NCBI GenBank assembly: GCA_031275085.1
Contig: JAISPG010000028.1
Location: 208,719 to 272,718, forward strand
Length of the DNA stretch: 64,000 nt
Origin: Bacteroidales bacterium
GTDB lineage: Bacteria; Bacteroidota; Bacteroidia; Bacteroidales; ML635J-15
Reading direction: 5' to 3'
Made by a program: the position numbers and the translations under genes. Positions 15,809-63,899 of the stretch are shown piece by piece; the first letter of the stretch is position 1, and the number at the start of each line of letters is the position of its first letter. A model generated the notes under the pieces. That model ran no database searches and had not been told where the DNA came from. It worked only from the letters and a program-made list of their open reading frames with translations.

Positions 15809-15888
15809 TTCGGCTTACTTCGGCTTACTTCGGCTTGGTTCGACTACGCTCACCAGCCGACGCTCAGTAGCCACCGCTCAGTAGCCGG
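15809..15888. repeat. Degenerate intergenic repeat of ~10-bp units (TTCGGCTTAC ... CTCACCAGCC GACGCTCAGT ...)
   Basis: TTCGGCTTAC|TTCGGCTTAC|TTCGGCTTGG|TTCGACTACG|CTCACCAGCC|GACGCTCAGT|AGCCACCGCTCAGTAGCC; homologous copy at 29746. Confidence 0.8.
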
Positions 15889-21174: not shown

Positions 21175-21248
21175 AGTAGCTACTTAAATAAATTTAGTAG
21201 CCACTAAATTGCAAACGGGTAGCTACTCGTTTGAATTAAGTAGCTACT
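21175..21248. repeat. Array of four AGTAGCTACT-type palindromes at 21-22 bp spacing
   Basis: Copies at 21175, 21196 (AGTAGCCACT), 21218 (GGTAGCTACT), 21239. Confidence 0.88.
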
Positions 21249-21360
21249 CATTTAAATTTGCCTACTTATACCTTCTTGAATTTTGCAGTATCAAATATTT
21301 TCCGCAGTTTATTAACCTGAAATAAAATTACTCCTATTTTTTGCTGATGGTGTTATATTC

Positions 21361-29745: not shown

Positions 29746-29820
29746 TTCGGCTTGGTTCGACTTGGTTCGGCTTGGTTCGACTGCGCTCACCAGTCGCCGC
29801 TCAGTAGCCGCCGCTCAGTT
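29746..29820. repeat. Second copy of the ~10-bp-unit degenerate intergenic repeat
   Basis: TTCGGCTTGG|TTCGACTTGG|TTCGGCTTGG|TTCGACTGCG|CTCACCAGTC|GCCGCTCAGT|AGCCGCCGCTCAGT. Confidence 0.8.
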
Positions 29821-62445: not shown

Positions 62446-62829
62446 ATGACAATTCAAATTAAAGCAGTAGAACGCCCGCAACCTGGAGTTGCCGGTGGAG
62501 GCATAAAGAAATTTTATGCAAGCCCTGTACATGACAGGGAAATAAGTCTTGACAGCTTAACTAAAGCTATAGAAAAGACTAGTACTGTCAACGGTGCAGA
62601 TATTCGTGCAGTACTTTACGCAATGGTTGAAGAAGCGGTAACAGGTTTATCGGAGGGTAGAATAATTCGTTTGGGCGACCTGGGCAGTCTTCGTATAACC
62701 ATCAGCAGCGAAGGTAAAGATACAGCCGAAGAAGTAACAGCAGCATCAGTAAAAAAAACAGGAGTAATTTTTACTCCGGGTAAAAAACTACGTGAAATGC
62801 TTGATTCTGCAAAATTCAAAAAGGTATAG
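62446..62829 (+). CDS. HU-family (HU-HIG-like) DNA-binding protein
   Basis: 'RPQPGVAGGGIKKFYASPVHDREISLDSLTKAIEKTSTVNGADIRAVLYAMVEEAVTGLSEGRIIRLGDLGSLRITISSEG' typical of Bacteroidota HU-like proteins. Confidence 0.88.
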   Translation: MTIQIKAVERPQPGVAGGGIKKFYASPVHDREISLDSLTKAIEKTSTVNGADIRAVLYAMVEEAVTGLSEGRIIRLGDLGSLRITISSEGKDTAEEVTAASVKKTGVIFTPGKKLREMLDSAKFKKV

Positions 62830-62845
62830 GCAAACAATTAAAATG

Positions 62846-62941
62846 AGTAGCTACTTAAAAAATTTGAGTGGCTACTCATTTTATTTTAGTAGCTACTAAA
62901 TTACAAACGAGTAGCTACTCAATTATAAACAGATAGCCACT
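62846..62941. repeat. Array of five AGTAGCTACT-type palindromes at 21-22 bp spacing
   Basis: Copies at 62846, 62867 (AGTGGCTACT), 62888, 62910, 62932 (GATAGCCACT). Confidence 0.88.
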
Positions 62942-62996
62942 AAATAATTAGTACTCGAAACTGGGAACTCAGTACTAAGTACTAGGTACTAGGTAC

Positions 62997-63410
62997 TCAC
63001 TCCTTCTCCCTGAGCAATTTTTCTAACAAAACGATTTTTTCCTGCTCTTTTTCCAATAGCTTTTCAAAGAGTTCAACGATCTTTTCTATAGGATTATTAT
63101 TAATATTATCTCCAGCAATATAATAACCTGCTGCACCTTTATTGTTTTCTATATTACTATTTTCAAAAATAATTGTCACCGGATCTTCTTCCAGCTCTTT
63201 AATTAATTGTGGAGCAACATCCAATGCCCTAGCAAATTTCCCTATCATATCGTCTTCGATCTCCCTCTTTTGCTCATAAAATGATACAAGAGCCTGACTT
63301 ATCCCCATATCGGCAGCCAGAGCTTCCTGTTTTATGCCTAAAGTGTGGCGGAAGCGTTTAACTGCATGTCCGTGGTGTATATTTTTCTCTTTTTTTTCCA
63401 GTGTTTCCAT
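62997..63410 (-). CDS. XRE-family helix-turn-helix regulator
   Basis: 'VKRFRHTLGIKQEALAADMGISQALVSFYEQKREIEDDMIGKFARALDV' HTH followed by a Glu/Lys-rich C-terminal helix. Confidence 0.9.
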   Translation of the reverse strand: METLEKKEKNIHHGHAVKRFRHTLGIKQEALAADMGISQALVSFYEQKREIEDDMIGKFARALDVAPQLIKELEEDPVTIIFENSNIENNKGAAGYYIAGDNINNNPIEKIVELFEKLLEKEQEKIVLLEKLLREKE

Positions 63411-63642: not shown

Positions 63643-63899
63643 AACAATATGCAGTTACCAGCATTACTTAAATTTTAGTTTAGTATAGATATTTTATCAA
63701 GTTAATTTGCATTTTATATAAATTATAACTACAATTACATGGATAAAAAAATATATTTTAAAGAATAATTTATTCTGTTCACATATATTATGAAAAATAA
63801 CCAAGGCCTATATAATGACTGACACATAAAAAGATAGCCCTTCAATAGCACTGGGTACTAGGAACTCGGTACTAGAAACTAAAAAAAACTTAATTATTA

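Follow-up and report, generated by a model that had tools for sequence, protein, structure and literature searches.

This locus raises the question of why five short palindromes stand at nearly even spacing between an HU-like gene and an XRE gene, and what recognizes them. It lies within a 64-kb stretch of Bacteroidales DNA that was analysed as a whole, here called the window, and its features are as follows.

62446..62829, plus strand: HU-HIG gene, 127 aa, N-terminal motif ERPQPGVAGGG (profile matches)
62846..62941, unstranded: array of five 10-bp palindromes, core AGTAGCTACT, in steps of 21, 21, 22 and 22 bp (sequence scan)
62846..62855, unstranded: array unit 1, AGTAGCTACT
62867..62876, unstranded: array unit 2, AGTGGCTACT
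62888..62897, unstranded: array unit 3, AGTAGCTACT
62910..62919, unstranded: array unit 4, AGTAGCTACT
62932..62941, unstranded: array unit 5, GATAGCCACT
62997..63410, minus strand: convergent XRE gene

The array and its two neighbouring genes

On recheck, all start coordinates and steps of the palindromes in the initial annotation are exact, and its HU-like gene (plus strand) and XRE gene (minus strand) converge around the array at agreeing coordinates. The array begins 16 bp after the HU-HIG stop codon and ends 55-56 bp short of the XRE gene, whose 3′ end faces it; because it is intergenic and its steps are not all multiples of 3, a coding repeat is ruled out. Across the window, there are 40 AGTAGCTACT-type sites with at most two mismatches, compared to 19.4 expected. 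In particular, the real window contains a chain of four such sites spaced 20-23 bp apart, whereas 40 dinucleotide-preserving shuffles of the 64-kb window never placed even two of them at that distance. A neutral minisatellite or a chance arrangement is thus a very unlikely origin. Short tandem repeats are common in Bacteroidota genomes, and minisatellites of 22 and 23 nt without a known role occur in Porphyromonas gingivalis (PMC4596501), but the shuffles exclude chance, the array is strongly associated with one gene family, and the palindromic cores are kept while the linkers diverge. Among AGTAGCTACT arrays, conservation is 1.69 bits per position in the cores, a figure slightly lowered by two stray ACTAGGTACT matches in the unit list, versus 0.45 in the flanks and linkers.

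Other repeats also occur in the window. The XRE gene is flanked on both sides by imperfect 7-bp repeats (ACTAGGT/ACTCGGTACTAG type; 62948-62997 and 63846-63880), and Bacteroides sp. 519 (L039) has a comparable repeat of the TAGTAGT type. Further, a compound repeat is present in two copies (15809-15887 and 29746-29819), where a 10-bp unit (TTCGGCTTAC / TTCGACTTGG) is followed by a 14-bp unit (ACGCTCAGTAGCCG).

HU-type proteins are textbook examples of non-specific DNA binding, and HU-HIG is a little-studied HU-type family, expanded in Bacteroidota, for which Burroughs et al. reportedly predicted in 2017 a role in the recognition of invasive DNA. By profile, the window gene product is an HU-HIG protein and belongs with the HU/IHF nucleoid proteins (PF00216), in their HU-HIG clade (PF18291, TIGR01201). 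Its match to PF18291 (E = 7.2e-32; 110.5 bits versus a curated cut-off of 26.2) covers residues 1-126 of 127, with weaker matches to TIGR01201 HU_rel (2.9e-21) and PF00216 (1.5e-5). A family profile (A2) matches the HU/IHF structures 5eka, 1b8z and 1ihf (E from 6e-8 to 2e-5), leaving the first ~30 residues uncovered; AlphaFold2 with seven sequences returned a pLDDT of 38, which is too poor for use. Membership in a defence system was considered and rejected, as the window HU protein has no PADLOC match.

The initial annotation proposed a protein-binding array, with the HU-like and XRE proteins as candidates. A protein-binding array with its sites on one face of the helix is the best-supported reading, and comparative data link the array strongly to HU; the XRE part did not survive. 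An operator for the neighbouring XRE regulator is extremely unlikely: the convergent gene is close by and the palindromes would suit an HTH dimer, but the array is downstream of that gene's 3′ end, away from its promoter, and an XRE homologue was found at none of 16 compared loci (mostly other AGTAGCTACT arrays or their HU relatives), which leaves the XRE gene incidental.

Arrays in the source genome and in related loci

The window contains a second array, absent from the initial annotation, together with the remains of another HU-HIG gene.

21175..21248, unstranded: second array, four units (AGTAGCTACT, AGTAGCCACT, GGTAGCTACT, AGTAGCTACT) starting at 21175, 21196, 21218 and 21239, in steps of 21, 22 and 21 bp (sequence scan)
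21267..21340 (end approximate), minus strand: degenerate HU-HIG 3′ end adjoining the second array, 5′ part missing (blastn, translation)

The remnant still reads ..IGVILFQVNKLRKIFDTAKFKKV / ..DTAKFKKV in translation, and blastn aligns this region to the five-unit locus with 75% identity over 208 bp, spanning the HU end and the array. A third, more worn array follows another HU fragment on contig C19 (L010/L248). Pattern searches of all 78 contigs of the 3.1-Mb genome found no arrays beyond these three places; genome-wide, every copy of the array adjoins an HU-HIG gene or its remains, which ties each of them to HU-HIG. None of 99 sampled relatives, of which 25 belong to the same genus, has the AGTAGCTACT array pattern.

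A scan of one genome per species yielded 42 stretches with the AGTAGCTACT array pattern, and the multi-copy stretches came mainly from Bacteroidales MAGs (for example, Gx481_bin123, Cus372_bin26, Ncb351_bin112 and TD116_bin5). Six of the 42 hold an HU-HIG gene that is 66-91% identical to the window protein, and every intact HU-HIG gene recovered beside a AGTAGCTACT array has the array on its 3′ side. Two loci (L017 and L037) are nested, where a CTGCGCAG array and an HU C-terminal remnant are followed by an HU N-terminal fragment and a AGTAGCTACT array. A viral origin was rejected: only a single pair of sites matched in each of six viral contigs, and a search of viral contigs for HU relatives found none. 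Separately, four MAG contigs from Chitinophagaceae and Treponema (L025, L031, L041 and L048) have GTAGCTAC cores with a period of exactly 21 bp and up to 13 copies; no HU-HIG gene was found near them, and since 21 is a multiple of 3, these arrays may be coding or a separate minisatellite.

Alternatively, the array may be a mobile element of the MITE or REP kind, dispersed whether or not the HU gene travels with it; the HU protein would then be a passenger or a helper. In Gx481_bin123 (G100), solo AGTAGCTACT arrays at seven or more places have flanks in common (CTTGCAGG..., ...CCTGCAGG), which resemble imperfect inverted ends and are seen in the G100 solo arrays only; these shared flanks suggest spreading, and the array and HU remnants of the window genome fit the same picture. 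However, all three window-genome arrays keep to an HU gene or remnant, and mobility leaves unexplained why each HU paralogue has one motif, at a constant place and period phylum-wide. We consider a mobile origin unlikely.

HU-HIG genes and their palindromes across the phylum

That HU-HIG genes are associated with palindrome arrays, each specific to its gene and in phase with the helix, is well supported. In Bacteroidota, these arrays have 3-9 palindrome copies with a 21-23 bp period and are usually directly 3′ of the gene. When HU-HIG genes were sampled regardless of arrays, 37 of 57 had one (23/37 in a first sample, made up of a phylum survey and two own-genome paralogues, and 14/20 in an order sample), compared to 16 background genes out of 226, taken from 15 stretches within these genomes; this background, unmatched in non-coding length, has non-coding flanks less often. 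The pooled difference has a Fisher p of about 1e-19, calculated with an array caller written after the pattern was seen and on genes that are related to each other within a sample. An array was called when at least three palindromic units lay within 260 bp of the gene; the HU-HIG samples were drawn by protein similarity alone, and genomes picked for AGTAGCTACT arrays were excluded from the counts. In mostly non-coding flanks, the background rate is 8/77 (3′) and 2/91 (5′). Moreover, when any step between 12 and 40 bp was allowed and AGTAGCTACT arrays were set aside, 21-23 bp accounted for 70% of the steps, with a mode of 22.

About one third of HU-HIG genes have no called array, including those in gut HU-smalltalk-amidase cassettes, and arrays were found at 0/13 of the remoter HU-like hits (L122-L134), which match at E about 1e-11 and in many cases contain stops. 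In one group whose HU-HIG proteins are longer (G089 and G343), the arrays tend to lie 5′ of the gene. As named examples, both read by eye, Parabacteroides distasonis (NZ_OY725757.1) encodes HU WP_009275732.1 with a 3′ array of ATCACCCGGTGATC, and Treponema saccharophilum plasmid pTS1 (NZ_AP025289.1; L236) encodes HU WP_002701845.1 with an upstream 22-bp array of AAAAAGTTACTGAGTTTTTTTA; the latter is an HU-HIG gene outside Bacteroidota. Gut Bacteroides and Parabacteroides HU-HIG genes at L231, L233 and L235 lie beside amidase genes, one of them with a smalltalk protein, and have no clear palindrome array, with a faint 22-bp repeat upstream at L231. At L184, L185 and L187 (G089 and G343), 22-bp palindrome-like arrays, such as six copies of GGATATATATGG, are found beside genes other than HU-HIG and may be solo arrays of another HU-HIG. 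A search of the open-access literature, with most subscription papers outside its reach, found no description of an association between HU-HIG and palindrome arrays, and we know of no report of HU-HIG genes with arrays of gene-specific palindromes.

Each gene has one palindrome type, and paralogues can differ in it even when their proteins are 81% identical, as are the window protein and that of L078. Paralogue 3′ flanks show the same place and period with different palindromes: CTGCGCAG (L078), ATGCGCAT (L093), ACGAGTATTCGT (L094), AGGGGCGCCCCT (L089) and CATACGTATG (L104). Phylum and order surveys by protein similarity add GACATAACTATGTC (L117), AACATATGTT (L119), CCTGCGCAGG (L113), CACGCGTG types (L198, L200-L203), GAAGCTTC (L212) and AAAGATGTACATCTTT (L210). 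Overall, protein identity correlates weakly with motif similarity (Mantel 0.11); motifs agree among close proteins only, and complete switches occur. The proteins with AGTAGCTACT do not form one clade (AU p 1e-4, with column 11 left out), and on the tree the motif changes three times, with residue 11 (Pro) changing at the same three places.

One subclade, whose proteins start with ER/EK-x-x-PG-V-x-GGG, provides a lead that N-terminal residues track the central bases of the palindrome. The centre is AGCT in 8/8 proteins with Pro11 and in 1/16 without it (naive p 1e-5), while Arg10 (with G/A/S11) goes with GCGC and Lys10 (with Gly11) goes with CGCG (7-0/0-5; naive Fisher p 0.001); this relation is post hoc, from a small sample in which some centres were judged by eye, including the GCGC centre of L196, where the program chose another. 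The tree-independent contrasts are just 3-0 and 2-0, too few for significance, and L195 and L205 are exceptions. L218 (ERG; ATGC/TTAT half-sites) and L215 (ERG; scattered GCGC sites), both read once the rule was in hand, are compatible with it though not clean. A broader reading is tentative, and we hold it at somewhat below even odds: HU-HIG would be a large sequence-specific nucleoid family, each member with its own 22-bp-phased array, in which a few residues of the N-terminal ER/EK-x-x-PG arm re-set specificity by reading the central bases. The arm code, equally tentative as part of that reading, would pair P with AGCT, R followed by G/A/S with GCGC, and K followed by G with CGCG.

Recognition as DNA or as RNA

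The array is likely a dedicated multi-site DNA target of the adjoining HU-HIG protein, with a probability of roughly 0.6. An HU-HIG dimer is predicted to bind each palindrome and, because sites 21-22 bp apart all face the same side of the helix, several dimers could bind side by side, which would form a small nucleoprotein assembly where the protein's own gene ends. Such an assembly could serve in autogenous control or titration, or as a local site of DNA architecture or anchoring. Paralogues would have switched their palindrome, apparently along with changes in the N-terminal ER/EK-x-x-PG segment. That HU-HIG binds the array, that the N-terminal residues take part in this and what follows from it are inferred from sequence comparisons.

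The initial annotation also considered that repeat units pair with each other in the transcript, in which case the array would act as RNA, forming a (bidirectional) terminator or an mRNA 3′ stabiliser that would serve both the HU gene and the gene converging on it. Adjacent units do fold: units 1 and 2 give a 21-bp stem followed by a U-run (UUUUAUUUU), which would make a good bidirectional terminator at the window locus, the folding z is about -8 to -9 for both strands, and likewise for the second array, and the AGTAGCTACT group has no separate terminator ahead of the array. However, pairing between units needs neither palindromic single units nor a 21-23 bp period, and several arrays are 5′ of their gene or behind a separate terminator. 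In particular, a terminator-like hairpin lies between the HU stop and the array in 10/45 3′ arrays, so those arrays probably act as DNA. A known RNA family was rejected, as all Rfam matches are far below family thresholds. An RNA role in place of DNA recognition is improbable; the palindromicity of single units, the helical period, the 5′ arrays and the arrays behind a terminator point to recognition at the DNA level, and at the window locus both roles could hold.

The array shares features with several known systems. In ParR/parC, TubR/tubC and Rep/iterons, the gene for a small DNA-binding protein lies beside several sites, and here too the sites are about two helical turns apart. Unlike in these centromere and iteron systems, each site is itself a short palindrome, and the locus showed neither a partner NTPase nor a replication initiator, nor any plasmid context; at this end of the window, the HU gene is flanked by the XRE gene and by a gene for a 200-aa protein that has no Pfam match, and no ParM/ParA/TubZ-type NTPase gene is beside the array. 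REP/BIME elements with RAYT are palindromic repeats tied to one gene family, with solo copies elsewhere, which is also the case here, but the linked gene is HU-type, without RAYT or another transposase, and the period is a strict 21-23 bp. The BrickBuilt MITE of P. gingivalis has intergenic 23-nt tandem repeats with a leader, a tail and IS5-like inverted ends, and BrickBuilt_14 adjoins a gene for a PF00216 protein (PMC4596501); it and the 22-, 23- and 41-nt repeats of that species are described without an HU-HIG link. Compared by its description, BrickBuilt has 23-nt direct repeats versus the 21-22 bp period of the window array. A BrickBuilt-like 23-bp array beside a G089 HU-HIG gene was rejected as a dispersed element, as it occurs on three contigs only, two of them at contig ends, and is not clearly dispersed.

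Ordinary HU is not sequence-specific; the HU-HIG genes here carry gene-specific palindrome arrays. The different palindrome of each paralogue gives each HU-HIG protein a predicted target, which makes its specificity and function directly testable. If the relation between residues and bases holds, it would be a simple, evolvable mode of recognition in the HU fold. Overall, these comparisons suggest a family of sequence-specific nucleoid proteins, unrecognised so far, whose genes come with binding sites of their own.
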